The position numbers and the translations under genes were made by a program. Under the pieces are notes generated by a model. It was not told the origin of the DNA and ran no database searches. It saw nothing but the letters and a program-made list of their open reading frames with translations. A stretch of 35,978 nt of DNA. It comes from Balneolales bacterium (GTDB lineage Bacteria > Bacteroidota > Rhodothermia > Balneolales > HLUCCA01). Shown here in pieces: positions 10,004-20,404 of this stretch. The stretch's first letter is position 1, and every line of letters starts with the position of its first letter. The DNA is taken from NCBI GenBank assembly GCA_024711145.1, contig JANJTJ010000020.1:1-35978 (forward strand). Direction: 5' to 3'.

Positions 10004-11119
10004 ATGAAACGAAAAACTCTCTGGGGCTTGGCCCTTGTCGTCGTTGCCGGATCGGCCGGCACCTGGTACTGGAAATCCTCCACCGCCGAATCCGACAAAC
10101 CCGCGCCGCGGCCTTTCGTGACCGTCGCCAGCGGGTCGGTCATTGAGAAAGCCTTGGCCACGGGCACCATCCAACCCGAGAACGAGGTTCAGGTGAAGTC
10201 CAAGATTTCGGGCGTGGTACGCCGCATCTTCGCCGAACCGGGTACCTATGTCCGTGCGGGTGACCCGCTGATCGAGGTCTCGCCCGATCCCACACCTCAG
10301 GAGCTGGCCGATGCCAAACGGAATGTGGAATTGGCCCAACTCAACGTGACCACCCTCGGCTCCCAACTCGATCGGCAACGTTCCCTGCGCGAACGGGGCA
10401 TGGTATCCGACCGCGAGTTCGAAGAAACGGAACGCCAGTTCAACGACGCCACCGTCCGACTTCAAATCGCCCAGGAACGCCTGAGTCTGATCGAATCCGG
10501 CTCGGTGACGATCGACGGTGTGGAAATCGAAAGCATCATCAAGGCTCCGATTTCCGGATACATCCTCGAAAAGATGGTGAATATCGGCGATCCGGTGGTA
10601 CCGCTCACTTCGTACCAGGCGGGCACGGCGCTCATGTCCATGGCATCCATGGAAAACCTGCTGTTCAAAGGCAATGTGGATGAGATCGATGTGGGCAAGA
10701 TCCGCGAAGGCATGCCGGTCGAAATCAAAGTGGGCGCGCTCCCCGGCGAGTTCGTGGTCGGCAGGGTCCGCCGGATCTCGCTGAAAGCGACCAAGGTGGA
10801 GAACGCCACCGTTTTCCCGGTTGAGATCGTGATTACCGATACCAGAGGCCAGACCCTGAGAGCCGGTTATTCGGCCAACGCCGATGTCATCATCCACAAG
10901 GTGGAGAATGTGCTGGTCATACCCGAACGGCTGGTCGTGTTTCGTGAGAACGAGGCTTATGTGGAGGTGCTTACCGATACGCTGACAGGAACGGGTACGG
11001 AAAAACGGGTCGAACTCGGCGCCAGCGATGCCATTTCGGTTGAAGTGAAAGCCGGATTGGCCGAAGGCGAGCGCGTGCTCGAACGGCCGGTGAAAACCCT
11101 GGGCGCCGAATCGCGCTGA
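10004..11119 (+). CDS. MacA/HlyD-type periplasmic adaptor of an ABC efflux system
   Basis: A 371-residue membrane fusion protein. An N-terminal anchor (residues about 4-20, W-G-L-A-L-V-V-V-A-G) precedes a lipoyl-like half (V-K-S-K-I-S-G-V-V-R-R-I-F-A-E-P-G), a helical hairpin (about 95-150, rich in E, R and Q), the second lipoyl half (I-K-A-P-I-S-G-Y-I) and a beta-barrel. Such proteins link inner-membrane transporters to an outer-membrane channel. Two permease genes follow, the first after a 3-base gap, so all three are one operon. No outer-membrane channel or ATPase gene is nearby, so the exported substrate is unknown. Confidence 0.87.
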   Translation: MKRKTLWGLALVVVAGSAGTWYWKSSTAESDKPAPRPFVTVASGSVIEKALATGTIQPENEVQVKSKISGVVRRIFAEPGTYVRAGDPLIEVSPDPTPQELADAKRNVELAQLNVTTLGSQLDRQRSLRERGMVSDREFEETERQFNDATVRLQIAQERLSLIESGSVTIDGVEIESIIKAPISGYILEKMVNIGDPVVPLTSYQAGTALMSMASMENLLFKGNVDEIDVGKIREGMPVEIKVGALPGEFVVGRVRRISLKATKVENATVFPVEIVITDTRGQTLRAGYSANADVIIHKVENVLVIPERLVVFRENEAYVEVLTDTLTGTGTEKRVELGASDAISVEVKAGLAEGERVLERPVKTLGAESR

Positions 11120-11122
11120 CCC

Positions 11123-12355
11123 ATGTCGTTACTCACGTTTCTGGCGGAATTCCTCCGCAATCTGAATCAACAGCGGTTGCGCACGTTCCTCACGGTGTTC
11201 GGCATCATGTGGGGAACCGCCACCCTGTTGATTCTGCTGGCGTTCGGGGTCGGGTTCCGTAACCAGACCACGCTGAACATGCGCGGCATCGGCGACGAGA
11301 TCGTCATCGTGTTCAACGGCCGTACCAGCAAGACCTTCGAGGGGTACAACATCGGCCGCCGGGTACAGATGCGCGAAAGTGATGCCCAACTGGTGCTGTC
11401 CCAGATCGACGGCATCAAGGAAATCGCACCCGAGTATTCCCGTTGGAATACGACGGTGCGCTATGGCGAACGGCGGAATAATCCGAACCTGTCGGGCGTG
11501 GTTCCCCATTACGGTTCCATGCGCAACATTTTCGCCGAAGCGGGTGGCCGTTGGTTCAACGACCAAGACCAGGCGCAACGCCGACGGGTCGCTTTCCTGG
11601 GCAACGCCTTGGCCCAATTGCTCTTCCAGGGAGAAGACCCCATCGGCAAAACCATACAGATCGGTCCCAATCCGTTCACCGTGATCGGGGTTATGGCCCC
11701 CAAAACACAGAATTCGTCCTACTCGGCCAGAGACGAGGACCGCGTGTTCATTCCGGCATCCACCTATTCCGTGATGTACGGTACCGACGCCATCAACAAC
11801 CTGATCTATACGGTGAAGAATCCGACCGAAGCCGACCAGGTGAAAGCCCAATTCTATGAGGTGATGGGGCGGAAACATCGGTTCGACCCAACCGATACCG
11901 ACGCGTTGGGTATCTGGGACACCAATGAATTCTGGAAGTTCATGTACTTCTTCTTCATCGGATTCAACGGGTTCCTGGGGCTCATCGGCTTCTTCACGCT
12001 GGCCGTAGGTGGCATCGGTGTGGCCAACATCATGTTCGTGGTGGTTCAGGAACGCATGAAGGAGATCGGCATCCGCCGTTCGGTGGGTGCCCGGCGCAGC
12101 CACATCCTGTTCCAATTCCTGACCGAAACCTTCCTTATCGTGGGTATCGGGGCCGGTATGGGATACCTCATCGGCTGGGGCATCACCAGCGGCATGGCCG
12201 CACTCCCCATCAAGGATTTCGTCGGTGTGCCCGTAATGAGCCCCATGGTCGGTTTGGCCGCCGGCGTGGTCCTGACCCTGATCTCCCTGGCCGCCGGCCT
12301 GTTGCCGGCCGTCCGCGCCTCCCGTCTCGACATCGTCGAATGCCTCCGAGTCTGA
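11123..12355 (+). CDS. MacB/FtsX-type ABC transporter permease 1
   Basis: A 410-residue permease. The first membrane helix follows L-R-N-L-N-Q-Q-R-L-R-T-F-L-T (residues 12-25). A large MacB-type periplasmic domain spans about 45-265. A C-terminal FtsX domain has three helices and the coupling segment E-R-M-K-E-I-G-I-R-R-S-V-G-A-R-R, which contacts the nucleotide-binding subunit. Unlike true MacB it has no fused ATPase domain. It pairs with the next gene, a clear paralogue, probably as a heterodimer. The ATPase must be encoded elsewhere. Confidence 0.88.
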   Translation: MSLLTFLAEFLRNLNQQRLRTFLTVFGIMWGTATLLILLAFGVGFRNQTTLNMRGIGDEIVIVFNGRTSKTFEGYNIGRRVQMRESDAQLVLSQIDGIKEIAPEYSRWNTTVRYGERRNNPNLSGVVPHYGSMRNIFAEAGGRWFNDQDQAQRRRVAFLGNALAQLLFQGEDPIGKTIQIGPNPFTVIGVMAPKTQNSSYSARDEDRVFIPASTYSVMYGTDAINNLIYTVKNPTEADQVKAQFYEVMGRKHRFDPTDTDALGIWDTNEFWKFMYFFFIGFNGFLGLIGFFTLAVGGIGVANIMFVVVQERMKEIGIRRSVGARRSHILFQFLTETFLIVGIGAGMGYLIGWGITSGMAALPIKDFVGVPVMSPMVGLAAGVVLTLISLAAGLLPAVRASRLDIVECLRV

Positions 12356-12361
12356 CACGCC

Positions 12362-13606
12362 ATGTGGAAAAACCTATTCGCTGAATTCATCGCCGATCTG
12401 CGGCTCCAGAAGCTCCGGGCTTCCCTCACCATCATCGCCATAACCTGGGGCACCTTCGCAGTGATCCTGTTGCTGGCATTCGGCGAGGGCTTGGGGAACC
12501 GCATGCTGGAAGGCATGCTGGGCGCGGGCAACCAGGTCATGATCCTGTATCCGGGCCAGACCACCATCAATCACGAAGGTCTGGGCGTGGGAAGGCCCAT
12601 CCGGTTCGTGGAGGAGGATGTGGACCTGATCCAGAATTCGGTTCCGCACATCGCGTTCATCTCTCCCCAATACGGACGTTGGGGTATCCGACTGAAAACC
12701 GATGCCGCCGCCACCAGCACCTATGGCGAAGGCGTGAATCCGGGGTTTGAGGACATGCGGACCATGTACCCCGCATCGGGTGGCCGTTTCATTTCGGAAC
12801 GGGATGTCACCGAGCAGCGTCGGGTGGTCTTCGTAGGGAATGAATTGGCTGCCCGCCTATTCCCCGGTGAGAATGCGGTAGGGAAAAGCGTGTTGGTCGA
12901 CGACATGCCCTTCACCGTGATCGGGGTCATGCAACCGAAATTGCAGACCTCGATGAACAACGGGCCCGATGCGAACCGGATCATCATTCCGCATACCACG
13001 TTCCGGAACATGTACGGAAACCGGTACCTGGGCAGCATTCTGATCCGCCCGACCAGCCCGGAGCACCAATTGGAAGTGAAAGCGGCGGTGACCGACCTGC
13101 TGGCACGCAAATACAAGTTCGACCCCACCGACAAGAACGCCATCTTCGTCTGGGATTTCATCGAACAGGAGAACATCAGCCGGAAAGTGAGTGCCGGTGT
13201 CACCATCTTCCTGTTCGTGGTCGGCCTGTTCACCCTACTCATAGCGGGCGTGGGCGTCGCCAACATCATGTACGTCGTCGTCAAGGAACGGACCCGCGAA
13301 ATCGGGGTCAAGAAGGCCATGGGAGCCCGGAACCGACACATCATGGCCCAATTCATCTTCGAAGCGATCAGCATATCGGCTTTGGGCGGCTTGTTCGGAT
13401 TGCTCATCTCATGGGGAATTGTGGCCTTCATCCTCTCGCTGAACCTGAACGATGGAGCCGGTCAGTTCCTGGGCTCGCCCGTCATCAGTGCGGAGGCCAT
13501 CTATCTGACCATCGGCACCCTGTCCTTGATCGGATTCCTGGCGGGTGTGTTCCCGGCACGGAAGGCCACCAAAGTGCAACCCGTCGAATCGTTGCGGTAC
13601 GAATGA
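12362..13606 (+). CDS. MacB/FtsX-type ABC transporter permease 2
   Basis: A 414-residue paralogue of the preceding permease, with the same architecture: N-terminal helix after L-R-L-Q-K-L-R-A-S-L-T, a periplasmic domain, and a C-terminal FtsX domain with the coupling segment E-R-T-R-E-I-G-V-K-K-A-M-G-A-R-N. Shared stretches such as the V-I-G-V-M-x-P-K segment and the K-F-D-P-T-D-like repeat show the pair arose by duplication. It starts six bases after its neighbour's stop. No ATPase is fused or adjacent. Confidence 0.88.
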   Translation: MWKNLFAEFIADLRLQKLRASLTIIAITWGTFAVILLLAFGEGLGNRMLEGMLGAGNQVMILYPGQTTINHEGLGVGRPIRFVEEDVDLIQNSVPHIAFISPQYGRWGIRLKTDAAATSTYGEGVNPGFEDMRTMYPASGGRFISERDVTEQRRVVFVGNELAARLFPGENAVGKSVLVDDMPFTVIGVMQPKLQTSMNNGPDANRIIIPHTTFRNMYGNRYLGSILIRPTSPEHQLEVKAAVTDLLARKYKFDPTDKNAIFVWDFIEQENISRKVSAGVTIFLFVVGLFTLLIAGVGVANIMYVVVKERTREIGVKKAMGARNRHIMAQFIFEAISISALGGLFGLLISWGIVAFILSLNLNDGAGQFLGSPVISAEAIYLTIGTLSLIGFLAGVFPARKATKVQPVESLRYE

Positions 13607-14527: not shown

Positions 14528-15118
14528 TCAGCTGGCGTCTTTCCGCCGGAAACACTCGTGCAGGCGCTGCAGGATCCTCGACTTGCGCACGCGCACGTTG
14601 GCCGGAGACAGGTTGAACTCCCGGCTGACCACCAGATACGACGCATCCGGCCGGCTCATGTAGAACTCGATGAAGCCCCGGCTGGCTTCGTCCAACTGCT
14701 GCAGGCACTCCGTCAGGATGCGCTCCCGTTCCGCATCCACCAACTCCTGGTACTGTTCGGCCGGGCTCACCATCAGCTGTTCTTCCAAAGCGGCACCCCC
14801 CTCCCGGGTCTCCCGCCGCAACAGCCGGAAATATTCGTTCCGGGATGAAGTCATCAGATAGCCCACGATGTTCACATCCGATTCGAAATGCCCGGCCAAG
14901 ATGCGCTCGTATACATTCGTAAGTGCTTGCTGCGCACATTCTTCCGCCATCGAGGGCGCCGCGCGCACCGTAGCCCGCAAATAATCCGCCAGCTTCGGCA
15001 GGATGAACCGCGTAAATGCATCGAAGGTGGCATGGTCTTGGTGCAACACCGATTCGATGATTTGGGAGGTGGTATACGCGGGCTGTTGGGTCAATCGGAA
15101 CACGTGGATGGATGGCAT
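14528..15118 (-). CDS. ECF-like RNA polymerase sigma-70 factor
   Basis: A 196-residue protein with two sigma regions. Region 2 (about 25-105) has A-E-E-C-A-Q-Q-A-L-T-N-V-Y-E-R followed by Y-L-M-T-S-S-R-N-E-Y-F-R-L-L-R-R-E, the DNA-melting and core-binding helix. Region 4 (about 135-193) has L-V-V-S-R-E-F-N-L-S-P-A-N-V-R-V-R-K-S-R-I, a helix-turn-helix for the -35 element. The intervening linker is charged. The start at 15118 gives a compact protein with region 2 near the N-terminus. It is divergent from a small lipoprotein and a CHAT protease, with a 316-bp A/T-rich spacer between. No classical zinc anti-sigma factor is adjacent; the membrane TPR protein at 18942 is the candidate partner. Confidence 0.88.
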   Translation of the reverse strand: MPSIHVFRLTQQPAYTTSQIIESVLHQDHATFDAFTRFILPKLADYLRATVRAAPSMAEECAQQALTNVYERILAGHFESDVNIVGYLMTSSRNEYFRLLRRETREGGAALEEQLMVSPAEQYQELVDAERERILTECLQQLDEASRGFIEFYMSRPDASYLVVSREFNLSPANVRVRKSRILQRLHECFRRKDAS

Positions 15119-15212
15119 ACAAAATAAGCGCCCTCACCAACGCCTCCCACCTATGATTTTTTTTTTTGGCGGAAGGCTCGGACAATCACTATGTTCAATA
15201 AAATCAACCATT

Positions 15213-15237
15213 AAAAAAATTACACAAGGTCGTGTAA
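15213..15237 (-). terminator. Terminator-like hairpin with T-run upstream of the sigma gene
   Basis: On the minus strand TTACAC and GTGTAA pair around a 6-base loop (15220-15237) and are followed by seven T (15219-15213). It points toward the sigma gene from about 95 bases upstream, so it may be an attenuator. The same palindrome could instead be a protein-binding site. Confidence 0.4.
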
Positions 15238-15338
15238 CATTTCGCACTCTTGCGAATCATTACCATGAACGGGAAATAAATCCGAAAAGTAGGCCACAGT
15301 CAGTCGCAAAAGACCACCTGTGAATCATAATGCCGAAT

Positions 15339-15356
15339 ACACGATCTAATTCGTGT
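15339..15356. promoter_or_regulatory. Inverted repeat ACACGA-N6-TCGTGT, possible operator
   Basis: A perfect 6-bp inverted repeat, about 80 bases before the lipoprotein ATG. The left half with flanks (TACACGATC) matches a half of the palindrome at 15220-15237 (TACACGACC on the minus strand), so both may bind one regulator. Confidence 0.4.
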
Positions 15357-15434
15357 GTTTGTCCGGTATTCCGTTCGTCAAATTCACAACAACCGTCTCG
15401 CAAATCTGTCAACATCAGACTCATAGGACTACCC

Positions 15435-15641
15435 ATGAAAAAGCACACCGTATCCGTCGCCGCCCTTTTCGCTGTCGTTCTCGCAACCGGTTGCGCCTCC
15501 GTAACCGACGCCAACCTGTCTTCGGCCCCTGCCGCTGAAACCGTTGCCGTGAAAGCCGATGCCGACCAAAGCAAAGACGACATCGTCTTCTCGAACCATG
15601 GTGGTGCGAAAGAAGACGTGATTGTGATCATCCCCGACTGA
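15435..15641 (+). CDS. Small lipoprotein of unknown function
   Basis: A 68-residue protein that I do not recognise. It has an N-terminal lipoprotein signal (M-K-K-H-T-V-S-V-A-A-L-F, then V-L-A-T-G-C with Cys20 as the acylation site). The mature part is about 49 residues, rich in Ala, Asp and Val, with no cysteine pairs. The C-terminus reads N-H-G-G-A-K-E-D-V-I-V-I-I-P-D. Weak AGGA precedes the start. It lies between the sigma gene and the CHAT protease, 46 bases upstream of the latter on the same strand. It could be a ligand, inhibitor or substrate of the protease; this is inferred from position only. Confidence 0.7.
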   Translation: MKKHTVSVAALFAVVLATGCASVTDANLSSAPAAETVAVKADADQSKDDIVFSNHGGAKEDVIVIIPD

Positions 15642-15661
15642 GCAATATGAGCGGCGGTCGG

Positions 15662-15669
15662 TATATTGG
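15662..15669 (+). promoter_or_regulatory. Putative -7 element TATATTGG for the CHAT protease gene
   Basis: Resembles TAnnTTTG with one mismatch and lies 18 bases before the CHAT ATG, in the 46-bp gap after the lipoprotein gene. It would allow the protease to be expressed independently. Confidence 0.35.
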
Positions 15670-15687
15670 CGTTCCGAAACATCCGGC

Positions 15688-18600
15688 ATGCCCAATAGAC
15701 CGACGACTCCGTACGTCCTCGTCCTTCTGCTCCTGATCCTGACCGCCAACCTGGCGGCCGCCCAACCGGGATTACAACGGACGAACCAGCAATTCGACAT
15801 CCTGTTGCAACGGTTGCTGCAACGGGACGAGAGCATCCATCATCATTGGCTGGCGGCCCGCCTACTCGACCAACATCCGGAGTTGGCGACCTACGCGGCG
15901 GGCCGCATCGCAGGAACCTCGTCATCCGACCCGGTCGTCTCGTGCCTGGTCCGATCGCTATCGGCCGGTGACGGCACATCCAGGTTGGAAGCGGCCTGGC
16001 GGTGCACCGGCAGCGGAGACGCCGCCGTCCTCTACCTGGAGTCGTTGCCGGCTTCGGCCCGATCGGCGGCCTGGAACCGGCACTTGAGCGCCTTCGAATC
16101 GGCCGCGCGTTCCGATTCGGTCATTTCCCACTACCTGAACCGGTCGGTCGGTCGGCCATACGACCGTGCCGTGCTGGCCCGAATCCGCAATCCGCGGCCG
16201 GCCGACGTGCACCTGGTTCCGGCCGGAACCACCCTGCGCGAAGCCGCAGACGCCCCCTACGTCCGTCTGCTCGAACATTGGGAACGCGCACTCCCCCCCA
16301 CCAAACGCAGTTGGACCTTGCGCGAGCAATGGACCGTGCAACAGATCGTGGATTGGCACCACCAGGCCCGCCGGTTCGACCGCGTGTTCGCCTATATGCC
16401 GGCCTTCTCGAACGCCACGGCATACCCCGACCTGGACACCAAGCTCACCCTGTTCAAGCGGTTGGCATTCGCCGGGTACTACACCGGCTATTACCAGCAG
16501 ACCATCGAATTCTACCGGAAGGACCTGCTCCCCTTCACAAGCGATATGGCTTATTGGAACCCGTCGTATCTGGAAGAGCACATGCGGGTGAGGCTCGATT
16601 TCGGCACCCTGCTCTACCGGTTGGGAGATGTGCCACGAGCCCGAGACATCTATATCGGCCTGTACCCCGACCGGCACCGGTTCAGCAATCTGAGCCTGCG
16701 TTCCGCTTTGTTGAACAATCTGGCGGTCGCCTATCTGAACACCGGTCAGGTGAACGAATACCTCAACCTGCAACTGCAATCGTTGGCCGATGCCCGCGAA
16801 GCCGATGACGCCGGCACCCAGCTCCGGATCCTGAACAACCTCTACATATTCCACAACCGGCAGCAGGATTGGGAAAATGCCATCCGGTATCTGGACCAGG
16901 CCTATGCCTTGTCGCTCGAATCGGGTCAACTCGAAGAGACCGTCTCCCTGCTCATGCTTTTCGCGACATACGCCCGCGATTACCTGAACGATCCCGAAGC
17001 ATCCCTGGCCTACCTGGATAGGGCTGATGTCTATCGGAACGCCGAAATCAGCAGATTTCTGACTGATGCCGTGGATGGTGAACGAGCCACAACATTGGAA
17101 CGAATGGGTCGAGCGTATGAAGCGGTTGCCTATCTGTCGCGACTGGCTGATGGCAGCAAAGAGCGGGGGGATGAATCGGCCAGAATTGGTTTCGTAACGA
17201 GAATCGCGAGAGTCTGGATGGACGCCGGACAATGGCGCCAGGCGACATCATATGTGGCCGATATTCAGCGATTCGATGATTTGGGCACCCTGGATTTCGA
17301 TACCCGTGTGGAAGCCACGAACCTGTTGGCCGAATGGGATGCCCGGCAAGGGAACCACGATCTGGTGCGGACCCGCCTGGAACCGCAGGTAGCGGAAATC
17401 TTCGAACGGCTGGCGAACAGTGCCGACGACCAGACCGGATTCATCCGGTTCGAACCCCGCTATGTTCGCACCATCCGTGTGCTGGGAGACACCTACCTGG
17501 CTTTGGGGCTGCCCTTGGAAGCGGCCCGCCTGTTCGATGCCGTCAAAACCGTGAACCAAGCCAGTTTCACGAATTCGAATCTGCTCAAATCCACCCTGTT
17601 GACCGAGGCCGAGCGGGTGCAGGAAGTCCGCCTGAGCGACCGCATGCTCGCGGTCCGGGAGCAGATGGCCGAAGCCGGCGAGGAAGACCGCATCCGACTG
17701 CAGAACGAATTGTTGGAAATCCGCGCCGAGCGCAACGCGTTGTTGCGGCGCATCACCGAAATCCACGATCCGCTCAAAACGGACATGCGGGTGGTGCAGC
17801 GGCGCCTCCGGCGGGGCGAAGTGGCCATATCCCTCACCCAGCTCGACTCCACCCTGTATCGGACCGTGATCAGCCGATCATCCATCCAGGTGGATCCCAT
17901 TCCGTTGGATACCGGCCTGGCCTCCGAAATCGAAACGGCCGCAACTTCGCTCCGCAACGGGCCCGTGGATCTGAACGGGTTGCACAGGTTGTACACGATC
18001 GTTCTGCAACCCGTGCTGGAAAGCAGGAATCCCGCCCGGTTGGTGTTCGTGCCCGATGGCGGATTCCACAGCATACCGGTGGAAGTACTACCCACCACCA
18101 CACCCAACGCCACGGCGAGCTATGGCAGTGTCCGTTATCTGATCGAGGACATGGCCGTGCGGTATGCCTCCTCGCTGAGCGAGCTCGGGAGGTCCGAATC
18201 CGGCAATCTCCGGAGCGATGGTCCCCTATTCTATGGCGTGGGCATTTCGCGATCGGCCACACACCCGACCCTGACCCCCATTCCATTCGCCGAGACCGAA
18301 ATCAACCGGATCGGGGATCGCCTGGCCCAGACCGGAGACGTACGCATCCGCACTGGATCCCGAGCCACCGAACAAACCGTTCTGCGCGAGGCGGGTGCCA
18401 GCCGCATACTCCATATCGCCTCGCACAGTGCGGTCAACCTGCGCGACCCCCTCTTTTCCGTCATCTACCTGGAATCGGACAGCGATTCCACCGACGGATC
18501 CCTGTATGCCTACGAACTGTTCGGTACCGACCTTCGCAACGAGCTCATCGTGCTGAGTTCCTGCGAATCGGGAGCCGGGCGGAACCTGTCGGGCAGCGGA

Positions 18601-18945
18601 TTGATCGGATTGGGCCGGGCACTCCGGTATGCCGGAGCCAAGAGTCTGATGCTCAATGCCTGGGAAGTGCAGGACCAGACCGCGGCCGAGATCGCCGAAT
18701 GGTTCTACACACGCCTCGAGGAAGGCATGGACAAAGACGAAGCCTTGCGGGCGGCGAAAATCCGTTTCCTCACGGAGCGGAGTGCCGACCCCCACCAATG
18801 GGGATCCTTCATCCTGGTGGGTGACAGCCGGCCCGTAATAGAAAGGGCCAGCATCAGGATGTGGGTCGTGGGGGGACTCCTGATACTGGCCCTGTTCGGG
18901 GTCCTGTTTGGATACTACCGGATGGTGTTCCGGGGAGAGGCTTAA
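15688..18945 (+). CDS. Exported TPR-CHAT caspase-like protease with C-terminal membrane anchor
   Basis: A 1085-residue protein. Residues 1-28 are a signal peptide (V-L-V-L-L-L-L-I-L-T-A-N-L-A-A-A). About 60-640 are helical, with TPR units in the second half (for example N-N-L-A-V-A-Y-L-N-T-G-Q-V). About 640-700 look like a charged coiled coil. The C-terminal CHAT domain (about 700-1045) has both catalytic residues: His913 in H-I-A-S-H-S and Cys959 in L-S-S-C-E-S-G. A final hydrophobic helix (about 1054-1076) and a short basic tail follow. The protease should therefore face the periplasm, anchored at its C-terminus. CHAT proteases are caspase relatives, usually activated by partner proteins through their TPRs. 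Its stop overlaps that of the convergent TPR gene. Confidence 0.88.
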   Translation: MPNRPTTPYVLVLLLLILTANLAAAQPGLQRTNQQFDILLQRLLQRDESIHHHWLAARLLDQHPELATYAAGRIAGTSSSDPVVSCLVRSLSAGDGTSRLEAAWRCTGSGDAAVLYLESLPASARSAAWNRHLSAFESAARSDSVISHYLNRSVGRPYDRAVLARIRNPRPADVHLVPAGTTLREAADAPYVRLLEHWERALPPTKRSWTLREQWTVQQIVDWHHQARRFDRVFAYMPAFSNATAYPDLDTKLTLFKRLAFAGYYTGYYQQTIEFYRKDLLPFTSDMAYWNPSYLEEHMRVRLDFGTLLYRLGDVPRARDIYIGLYPDRHRFSNLSLRSALLNNLAVAYLNTGQVNEYLNLQLQSLADAREADDAGTQLRILNNLYIFHNRQQDWENAIRYLDQAYALSLESGQLEETVSLLMLFATYARDYLNDPEASLAYLDRADVYRNAEISRFLTDAVDGERATTLERMGRAYEAVAYLSRLADGSKERGDESARIGFVTRIARVWMDAGQWRQATSYVADIQRFDDLGTLDFDTRVEATNLLAEWDARQGNHDLVRTRLEPQVAEIFERLANSADDQTGFIRFEPRYVRTIRVLGDTYLALGLPLEAARLFDAVKTVNQASFTNSNLLKSTLLTEAERVQEVRLSDRMLAVREQMAEAGEEDRIRLQNELLEIRAERNALLRRITEIHDPLKTDMRVVQRRLRRGEVAISLTQLDSTLYRTVISRSSIQVDPIPLDTGLASEIETAATSLRNGPVDLNGLHRLYTIVLQPVLESRNPARLVFVPDGGFHSIPVEVLPTTTPNATASYGSVRYLIEDMAVRYASSLSELGRSESGNLRSDGPLFYGVGISRSATHPTLTPIPFAETEINRIGDRLAQTGDVRIRTGSRATEQTVLREAGASRILHIASHSAVNLRDPLFSVIYLESDSDSTDGSLYAYELFGTDLRNELIVLSSCESGAGRNLSGSGLIGLGRALRYAGAKSLMLNAWEVQDQTAAEIAEWFYTRLEEGMDKDEALRAAKIRFLTERSADPHQWGSFILVGDSRPVIERASIRMWVVGGLLILALFGVLFGYYRMVFRGEA

Positions 18946-19682
18946 GGCATATGCAACCCATCCAAAGCGGTACGTGCCGCCCGTGAATACGCGCCATCGT
19001 AGGGGATGACGGATTCGAGCATGCGTACCGCCCGATCGGTTTCGCCGGTTTGGAGCAGGGTATTGGCCAGATACCAGCGGGCTTCCTCCTGCAGTGCGGG
19101 GGCCACCTCGTTCATCTGGACGACTTTGCCGAAAGTCGATTCGGCCGCATTCCATTCACCCTGGTTGTATTGGGCAGTGCCTTGGTGGATCCAAAGCAGT
19201 GCCCGTTCATCCGTGGTGTTCGCTTCCGACACCAAGCGGTCGAATTCGACCATGGCATCCCCATAAGATCCCTGGACAGCCAGCAGGACCGCCGAACGTA
19301 CGCGGGCCTCGAACGAGGTGGCCGCTTGCGTACCGGATCGGACCAAACCGGTCTCCAGTCGGGACAAAGGCGTGAACGGAGTGGATTCCGAAGTGGACTG
19401 ATACAGCCATAGGGAACCTGCCGTTACCGCCACGGCGGCAGCTGCCGCCGTTAGGGTTGTCAGCTTGGGACGGGTCCGGATTCCGATTCGGGGGATGGAA
19501 CGGACCTCGTGGGTGGTTGCCACCGCGACCTTGCGGATCGTGGCGGCCGATTTCAGAAAATCGACGTAATCGTACTGGATCGCGTCGATCCACAGCTCAT
19601 CGGCTTGCGCTTGGGTGAGGGCCCCCTTCACATAGAGATCGATTCGATCCTCCAGTTCGGGTAGCCGGGATTTGGTTTTCAC
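18942..19682 (-). CDS. Membrane-spanning TPR protein with anti-sigma-like N-terminal head
   Basis: A 246-residue protein, taking the GTG at 19682 as start; a TTG at 19730, three bases after the receiver gene's stop, would add 16 residues. Residues 1-70 are hydrophilic and helical, with E-L-E-D-R-I-D-L-Y-V-K-G-A-L-T-Q-A-Q-A-D-E-L-W, which resembles the head of Bacteroidota anti-sigma factors. A single membrane helix lies at about 74-95 (T-T-L-T-A-A-A-A-A-V-A-V-T-A-G). TPR-like repeats at about 125-240 would lie in the periplasm. The topology suits transmission of a periplasmic signal to a cytoplasmic sigma factor. The TAA stop shares TTAA with the CHAT stop on the other strand. The anti-sigma role is an inference. 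Confidence 0.75.
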   Translation of the reverse strand: MKTKSRLPELEDRIDLYVKGALTQAQADELWIDAIQYDYVDFLKSAATIRKVAVATTHEVRSIPRIGIRTRPKLTTLTAAAAAVAVTAGSLWLYQSTSESTPFTPLSRLETGLVRSGTQAATSFEARVRSAVLLAVQGSYGDAMVEFDRLVSEANTTDERALLWIHQGTAQYNQGEWNAAESTFGKVVQMNEVAPALQEEARWYLANTLLQTGETDRAVRMLESVIPYDGAYSRAARTALDGLHMP

Positions 19683-19724
19683 AGGTGTACGGGTGTCGGT
19701 TTCGGAACTACCGAGACCACCTGT
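19681..19724 (-). promoter_or_regulatory. Imperfect hairpin between receiver stop and TPR start
   Basis: On the minus strand ACAGGT pairs with ACCTGT, and an inner GGTCTCGGT pairs with ACCGACACC at eight of nine positions. The base of the stem touches the GTG at 19682. It may limit translation of the TPR gene or terminate part of the receiver transcript. Confidence 0.4.
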
Positions 19725-19733
19725 ACGCAACGC

Positions 19734-20288
19734 TCAGGTAGCAGCCGTCTGGCGGGCACGCTGTTCGGTCACGTATCGGATGGCGTTCAACAGATCCTCT
19801 TTCTGAAATGGTTTCGGAAGGAATGCATCCATGCCGGCATGCATGCAGTTCTCGCGGACATTGGAGCCCAAGTTCGCGGTTACTGCGATGATCGGAACGC
19901 CCTCATACCCTTTCATTTCCCGCAACCGCCGGGTGGTTTCGATACCATCCATGCCTTCGCCCAGGTTCACATCCATGATGATCACATCATAGCGGTTCTC
20001 CCGAGCCAGGCGTAGGGCATCGTCTCCGGTAACAGCGGATTCCACGTGGTGGGTCTTCCGTAGGAAATACTGGACGATGGTCCTGATTTCCGGATTATCC
20101 TCCACGTGCAGGGTCTTGTAGGGGGCATCCGATGCCGAAACCGCCGGGGCGGAGTCCGCCGCGGCTTTCATTTCCGAGGTCTCTTCGTTCCAGACGTACC
20201 GCTTCACCCCATCCGAAGACTTCTCGTCTTTGAATATGATGGAAGGTAGGAACATATGGTTCGGAGTCCTTTCAGGCGGTGTCGCCAT
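19734..20288 (-). CDS. Stand-alone response-regulator receiver protein
   Basis: A 184-residue protein with a CheY-like receiver in its C-terminal two-thirds (about 58-178). The acidic pair is Glu63/Asp64, the phospho-acceptor Asp106 in I-I-M-D-V-N-L-G, the conserved Thr137 in A-V-T-A-N and Lys159 in L-P-K-P-F. The N-terminal 57 residues show no known domain and are not DNA-binding. Single-domain receivers of this type act as phospho-relays or protein-protein switches. The ATG at 20288 is chosen; another at 20255 would shorten the tail. The membrane TPR gene follows within about 50 bases on the same strand, so the two are probably co-transcribed. No histidine kinase is nearby. Confidence 0.87.
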   Translation of the reverse strand: MATPPERTPNHMFLPSIIFKDEKSSDGVKRYVWNEETSEMKAAADSAPAVSASDAPYKTLHVEDNPEIRTIVQYFLRKTHHVESAVTGDDALRLARENRYDVIIMDVNLGEGMDGIETTRRLREMKGYEGVPIIAVTANLGSNVRENCMHAGMDAFLPKPFQKEDLLNAIRYVTEQRARQTAAT

Positions 20289-20365
20289 GGGTGATATGGT
20301 TCGGATCGGTTGTGCCACTTCGGGGTTCCTCTCATGGACATGAGTAGTTGCCCCGCCGTTTGTTA

Positions 20366-20404
20366 CACCAGTTCGAAACTTTTTTTTTCGGTCTCGAACC
20401 GGTG
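20366..20404. promoter_or_regulatory. Imperfect inverted repeat flanking a T9 tract upstream of the receiver gene
   Basis: CACCAGTTCGA (20366-20376) and TCGAACCGGTG (20394-20404) are complementary at 10 of 11 positions and enclose a 17-base loop with nine T. The repeat lies about 80 bases upstream of the receiver start, so it is more likely a binding site or leader structure than a terminator. Confidence 0.35.

Follow-up and report, generated by a model that had tools for sequence, protein, structure and literature searches.

A CHAT protein as the proposed site-1 protease of a membrane anti-sigma factor in Balneolales

Introduction

What role does an exported, caspase-like protein play when its gene sits between those of a sigma factor and a membrane-bound TPR protein? 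This question is raised by a five-gene block at positions 14,528 to 20,288 of a 35,978-nucleotide stretch of a Balneolales genome (assembly GCA_024711145.1, contig JANJTJ010000020.1), the whole of which we call the window. The block encodes an extracytoplasmic function (ECF)-type sigma factor (SIG), a small lipoprotein (LIPO), an exported protein with tetratricopeptide repeats (TPR) and a CHAT domain (CHAT), a putative membrane anti-sigma factor with a TPR domain (TPRas) and a single-domain receiver (REC). In our view the five genes probably form an ECF sigma circuit that responds to the envelope, with CHAT acting as the site-1 protease of the anti-sigma factor TPRas. The computed evidence comprises gene linkage, protein topology, conserved catalytic residues, a conserved candidate site and a shared promoter.

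Conservation of the gene block

The first-pass annotation had described five genes with their domains, a signal peptide, membrane anchors, the CHAT residues His913 and Cys959 and overlapping gene ends, and we confirmed all five genes and each of these features. Both strands are used: SIG (14,528..15,118, minus strand) is divergent from LIPO (15,435..15,641, plus strand) and CHAT (15,688..18,945, plus strand), and the operon formed by REC (19,734..20,288, minus strand) and TPRas (18,942..19,730, minus strand) is convergent on CHAT. The stop codons of CHAT and TPRas overlap by 4 nt. SIG and TPRas flank CHAT and are not adjacent to each other, and the arrangement looks like three transcription units.

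Relatives were found in genome contigs with the CHAT alignment as the query, the single CHAT protein having returned none. They belong to the Balneolales (class Rhodothermia) and include Balneola, Gracilimonas, Fodinibius and Rhodohalobacter. A CHAT ortholog is present in 103 of the 129 genomes of the order, and the CHAT gene of the block is the only one in its source genome (2.3 Mb in 138 contigs, about 90% complete). Linkage was scored with profiles in 40 neighbourhoods and 80 named loci, with duplicates removed before counting; individual loci, those of other groups included, are cited below by our own L numbers. SIG lies upstream of and divergent from CHAT in 43 of the 46 loci with enough flank, LIPO sits between them in all 43 SIG-bounded loci, and TPRas is downstream of and convergent with CHAT in 76 of 82. 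The sigma, CHAT and TPR genes are thus linked throughout the Balneolales, far above chance, and similar modules occur across the Bacteroidota. A lack of such linkage, which the first-pass annotation had set as a refutation of its idea, was therefore not observed. Of the self-contained five-gene block that had been suggested, the linkage of sigma factor, lipoprotein, CHAT and TPR genes stands; the receiver, found in 29/82 loci, is a minority component and not a constant member. In the reduced genomes of two genera (g22 and g23), CHAT and TPRas are mostly missing together, and one genome of 98% completeness (G087) lacks SIG, CHAT and TPRas.

CHAT and its candidate cut site

CHAT is predicted to be an exported, membrane-anchored, separase-like cysteine protease. 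It scores 185.7 bits against PF12770, for which the cut-off is 24 (Pfam CHAT, 1.7e-54), and almost every ortholog keeps the N-terminal signal and the C-terminal membrane span. The catalytic residues His913 (codon 18,424..18,426, plus strand) and Cys959 (codon 18,562..18,564, plus strand) are invariant in ortholog alignments of 38 and 43 rows. The AlphaFold2 model (predicted template modelling score, 0.78) has Csx29 as its closest fold match in the PDB, followed by DdvA and separase, and the catalytic region also matches DdvA by sequence at 3e-4. CHAT proteins from other Rhodothermia families (L204-L218) are not linked to sigma genes, and several of their genes adjoin one for a conserved protein of ~310 residues.

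The candidate cut site lies in the periplasmic linker of TPRas, whose peptide reads PLSRLETGLVRSGTQ. Arg131 (codon 19,338..19,340, minus strand), the proposed scissile residue, is invariant in 61/61 orthologs and stands within the motif [EGD]-[LY]-[DNE]-x-x-R|S. Serine follows it in 53/61, P4 is Asp or Glu in 46/61 and P6 is acidic in 48/61; the predicted local distance difference test (pLDDT) score of Arg131 in the TPRas model is about 58-66. This motif resembles the [D/E/S]-Phi-E-x-x-R sequence after which separase cuts, and Slk19 is cut after DxxR (PMC12609080). The paralogous TPR protein of the Balneolales keeps the arginine, with an acidic P4 in most members, and 55 of 68 anti-sigma relatives from other families have an R-[SGNATD] site, compared with 14% of background windows.

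On the protease side, Asp996 (codon 18,673..18,675, plus strand; LNxWxVxD motif) is invariant in Balneolales and is a proposed P1 (S1-pocket) determinant. Among loci with CHAT within 3.5 kb, an Arg site accompanies Asp at position 996 (LWxVxD) in 33 of 34 cases and another residue in 0 of 6 (Fisher 1.8e-6, a value not corrected for descent). Viewed from the other side, seven phylum loci with CHAT within this distance are without the Arg site, and residue 996 differs in six of them. On the tree the changes fall in two clades, one combining a Met-Ser site with Glu996 (L220, L230, L236 and L283) and the other mixed (L315, L329 and L331). Csx29, which cuts Csx30 at M427 (PMC10028731), carries Ser at the column aligned with residue 996, and in human separase D2070 is named as the S1 residue, 41 positions beyond the catalytic Cys (PMC12609080). 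The covariation of the P1 site with residue 996 is suggestive and not proof. Because of the invariant Arg131 site and this partial covariation, we propose that CHAT would cut TPRas after Arg131. The first-pass idea that CHAT cleaves the TPR protein thereby gains a site and a candidate specificity residue, and the cleavage itself stays a prediction.

TPRas as a putative anti-sigma factor

TPRas has, in both sequence and model, a helical cytoplasmic domain followed by one membrane span, as membrane anti-sigma factors do. The model places three helices at residues 23-74, the span at 92-113, a low-confidence linker at 114-138 and the periplasmic TPR domain at 139-259, in a numbering that runs from the TTG at 19,730; the true start may be the GTG at 19,682. 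The cytoplasmic head carries the motif L..KID.Y..G.LS....D.LW.EL. It has no Cys/His ligands, so that the zinc-binding H-C-C motif of the zf-HC2/ZAS subtype is absent from it, and zf-HC2, the anti-sigma zinc finger, is the commonest Pfam match of the heads, a weak one seen in 6 of 28. A PDB fold search with the whole of TPRas returned mainly TPR proteins.

Most Balneolales genomes contain a paralogous operon in which a sigma gene is followed by a TPR gene (L152-L171, for example L152:15229-16799), flanked by scpA and ruvB in the cases whose neighbours we read. Beyond the Balneolales, a sigma gene lies within 120 nt of the gene in 64 of 68 related TPR proteins from the Bacteroidota. In L147, L237, L238 and L243, genes for a sigma factor, for a TPR or one-span protein and for CHAT lie next to one another in a single direction. 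In an Ignavibacterium genome (L144) the neighbours of CHAT are a sigma gene and the gene of an anti-sigma factor that has the classical zinc-finger motif. CHAT is present in 36/46 genomes that have this anti-sigma family, against 27/251 in the comparison. The paralogous operon, the sigma adjacency and the three-helix head support the anti-sigma function that had been read from the head in the first-pass annotation, and since related sigma/TPR/CHAT modules occur across the Bacteroidota, TPRas is likely to be the cognate anti-sigma factor of SIG.

Two further arrangements were seen. CHAT paralogs lie near the paralogous sigma-TPR system in several genera, with the CHAT genes adjoining ftsY, and at L144:4726-5520 and L234:1597-2319 CHAT is convergent with or adjoins sigma genes and a classical zinc-finger anti-sigma factor lacking the Arg site.

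SIG, its promoter motif and the predicted regulon

SIG is a sigma factor of 196 residues with regions sigma2 and sigma4. It scores 44.1 bits against NCBIfam sigma70-ECF, over the cut-off of 42.9, and the Pfam models for sigma regions 2 and 4 were detected at scores under the Pfam cut-offs; its alignment holds 26 orthologs.

A shared promoter element, TGTAACAA-N14-ACTCTT, is found upstream of LIPO in orthologs; the best pair of words was present in 22 of the 37 non-redundant regions, and shuffles reached at most 8. In the window, the REC-TPRas operon is preceded by a motif with one mismatch (TGTAACA-N15-ACTCATG; 20,339..20,367, minus strand) ~50 nt upstream of the REC start, and the LIPO-CHAT operon by a candidate ECF promoter (15,233..15,261, plus strand) with a perfect TGTAACA box and three mismatches in all to TGTAACA-N15-ACTCTTR. 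A motif scan of the window gave 4 matches where 1.2 were expected. Across 33 genomes the TGTAACA-N15-ACTCTTR scan found 0-17 sites per genome, and the reversed control found 0. Many genomes have one site just upstream of TPRas or REC, and at one mismatch or fewer the motif precedes TPRas or REC in 47 of 77 loci. No conserved motif directed towards SIG was found on its side of the divergent region. A housekeeping Bacteroidota promoter fits less well, as the regions conserve TGTAACAA but not the TA of TAnnTTTG.

The motif appears tied to SIG, since it is found at neither promoter of L105 and L121, which have no SIG, nor, at one mismatch or fewer, at the paralogous sigma-TPR loci; that SIG itself recognises the motif is our reading of this pattern. 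L105 and L121, both from Fodinibius, keep LIPO, CHAT and TPRas and have lost SIG together with the motif at both operons, and another sigma factor may serve them instead.

The genes behind the other sites encode HlyD/MacB exporters, an RND-type pump, lipoproteins, a possible outer-membrane barrel, a pilin-like protein, a ParA-like ATPase, receivers and small AraC-type regulators, and the predicted regulon would accordingly consist of envelope and efflux genes. Control of cell death, which had been raised as a possible function, finds no support. In the window, genes for HlyD and two MacB-type permeases lie near SIG (10,004-13,606), and HlyD/MacB exporters stand behind a sigma-type promoter in L384 and L391. 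In L372, L373, L378 and L381 the gene in this position encodes a pilin-like protein that starts MGQQQLLLVILVTIIVG and is without a Pfam match, and in L375, L387, L393 and L394 it encodes a very small AraC-type helix-turn-helix protein with no sensor domain.

The lipoprotein and the receiver

LIPO is a lipoprotein of 68 residues with the lipobox LATGC (Cys20). Its genes occur in 1-6 tandem copies per locus, with at least two in 26/43, and the mean identity of the copies is 94% within a locus and 30% between loci. Conserved among the orthologs are the lipobox region and, at the C terminus, a P-I-x-x-x-P tail; their comparison revealed neither an invariant basic residue nor a separase-like site. 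Because the conserved parts are the lipobox and the tail, without a conserved basic site, LIPO is probably a ligand or sensor that sets CHAT activity. Many loci, L050 and L065 among them, have near-identical tandem copies ahead of CHAT, and assemblies, those of isolates included, often break at these copies just upstream of CHAT.

REC (Pfam Response_reg, 4e-26) is the first gene of the REC-TPRas operon and its variable member. In two Bacteroidales-type loci (L139:4991-5875 and L142:5354-6211) a histidine-kinase-like protein takes the place of the receiver, and this replacement at the same position suggests an optional phospho-input to the circuit.

Discussion

We infer from these data a circuit with regulated cleavage, sigma binding, an envelope trigger and a role for LIPO. 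The three-helix cytoplasmic head of TPRas would hold SIG at the inner membrane, with the TPR domain facing the periplasm. Upon an envelope signal, CHAT, its activity set by LIPO as ligand or sensor, would cut TPRas after Arg131 in the linker between the span and the TPR domain, playing for TPRas the part that DegS plays for RseA. The leftover stub would then be removed by an RseP-type (M50) site-2 protease, one of which is encoded in the source genome, and SIG would be freed. SIG would go on to transcribe LIPO-CHAT and REC-TPRas, giving both amplification and reset, as well as efflux, lipoprotein and regulator genes.

Several observations weigh against this scheme. The LIPO-CHAT promoter of the window is itself weak, with its three mismatches, and SIG is absent from L105, L121 and L070. 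The covariation comes down to two independent clades with L315 as an exception, and a tree-based sign test has no power. Asp996 follows Cys959 by 37 residues, compared with 41 for separase D2070, and its S1-pocket role is only proposed. The phylum profile was built from motif-bearing proteins and descent accounts for part of the conservation; Arg131 could be structural instead of scissile. In addition, because a PDB sequence search with the TPRas head profile returned unrelated proteins and no anti-sigma factor, the case for anti-sigma homology is built on operon context, on topology and on a zf-HC2 match that is weak.

The retention of the Arg site in some anti-sigma relatives without CHAT within 3.5 kb is a further such point, and it would fit a circuit run by another protease or by the receiver, in which CHAT is a sigma-factor output that serves as an effector protease or in envelope quality control and leaves TPRas uncut. 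The position of CHAT behind a sigma-type promoter, which makes it a regulon member, agrees with this arrangement. However, CHAT adjoins sigma and anti-sigma genes in differing gene orders across the phylum, the P1 site and residue 996 change jointly in two clades, and CHAT co-occurs in genomes with the anti-sigma family at the frequencies given above, and we regard a pure output role as unlikely.

CHAT might also be a sensing scaffold that alters the TPR domain by contact without cutting, as the fused TPR-CHAT part of DdvA may do. In DdvA the anti-sigma and TPR-CHAT parts belong to a single protein, which ranks among the best fold matches for CHAT, but a scaffold does not need the invariant His913 and Cys959, and the conserved arginine sits in a low-confidence linker and not on a binding surface, which makes contact alone a very unlikely mode of action. 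The first-pass annotation had further named LIPO as an alternative substrate, and if it were the main one, its fragment or its loss would signal to TPRas. LIPO is present in every SIG-bounded locus, co-directional with CHAT and often in tandem; the lack of an invariant basic residue or separase-like site, together with a P-I-x-x-x-P tail that is more ligand-like, leaves this version highly improbable. A defence system was considered as well and rejected, since PADLOC on the five proteins gave only a match of 0.017, for the receiver.

The closest functional parallel to cleavage of TPRas by CHAT is the DegS-RseP-RseA-RpoE pathway of Escherichia coli, with which the block shares a membrane anti-sigma factor, a proposed periplasmic site-1 cut in the linker outside the span, an available site-2 protease and an envelope-related regulon. 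CHAT may work like DegS and is not a DegS-type protein: DegS is a trypsin-like serine protease with a PDZ domain, whereas CHAT has the architecture of a cysteine protease of the caspase/separase clan, with no trypsin-like or PDZ architecture and with a proposed Arg site. The RseA system also differs in that the block has an anti-sigma factor with a periplasmic TPR domain and a dedicated, tandem-copied lipoprotein.

Craspase, from type III-E CRISPR systems, likewise has a TPR-CHAT protease, a sigma inhibitor and an ECF sigma factor encoded together, and in its Csx29-Csx30-CASP-sigma module proteolysis is proposed to relieve sigma inhibition (PMC10028731). There, Csx29 is activated by Cas7-11 with target RNA and cuts at a methionine, M427 of Csx30 (PMC10028731); here the CHAT protein is exported and membrane-anchored, and its proposed target is a membrane anti-sigma factor with an Arg site. 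A PADLOC scan of the five proteins returned nothing relevant to craspase, the whole genome not having been searched for Cas7-11. In DdvS-DdvA of Myxococcus xanthus (PDB 8rot), an ECF sigma factor is paired with a transmembrane anti-sigma factor that has TPR and CHAT parts (PMC12288465), and DdvA, as the anti-sigma factor of DdvS, controls an island of CRISPR and cyclic oligonucleotide-based antiphage signalling system (CBASS) genes (PMC12288465, PMC4374960). DdvA is one fused protein, unlike CHAT and TPRas, which are separate genes on opposite strands, and in place of the CBASS-CRISPR island the block has a lipoprotein and a predicted efflux and envelope regulon.

Separase shares the CHAT/caspase-like fold and a similar [DES]-Phi-E-x-x-R cleavage motif, but is eukaryotic and cuts cohesin rather than serving as an anti-sigma protease. 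The EcfO-Reo pair of Bacteroidales is also an ECF sigma/anti-sigma pair, proposed to sense outer-membrane stress and with lipoproteins in its regulon; Reo differs in being a dual-membrane protein with a beta-barrel, and no CHAT protein is mentioned for this pair (PMC9308784, PMC13114119). Although the system had been called undescribed, and is not described in the literature that we searched, the general idea was preceded by Csx29/Csx30 and DdvA: TPR and CHAT parts within an anti-sigma factor were already known, and so was a CHAT protease for which relief of sigma inhibition is proposed. The novelty lies in a protease that is split off and anchored in the membrane, and in the Arg site, lipoprotein, regulon and distribution.

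To our knowledge, the substrate is not known for most bacterial CHAT proteins. The TPRas family offers a concrete and widely distributed candidate, with a named cut site and a candidate specificity residue. If the proposed circuit is correct, a caspase/separase-type protease would join envelope signalling, and the block would provide an evolutionary background for the craspase sigma module. More tentatively, and with somewhat less than an even chance in our estimation, CHAT proteases may serve across the whole phylum Bacteroidota as a class of site-1 enzymes that act on membrane anti-sigma factors. Their cut would fall at a separase-like Arg site, the P1 residue of which would vary in step with a residue of the CHAT pocket. 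In that case this switch would be the older one, from which the craspase module and DdvA arose by rewiring or fusion, and transcriptional signalling in bacteria would be an ancestral role of the caspase/separase clan.

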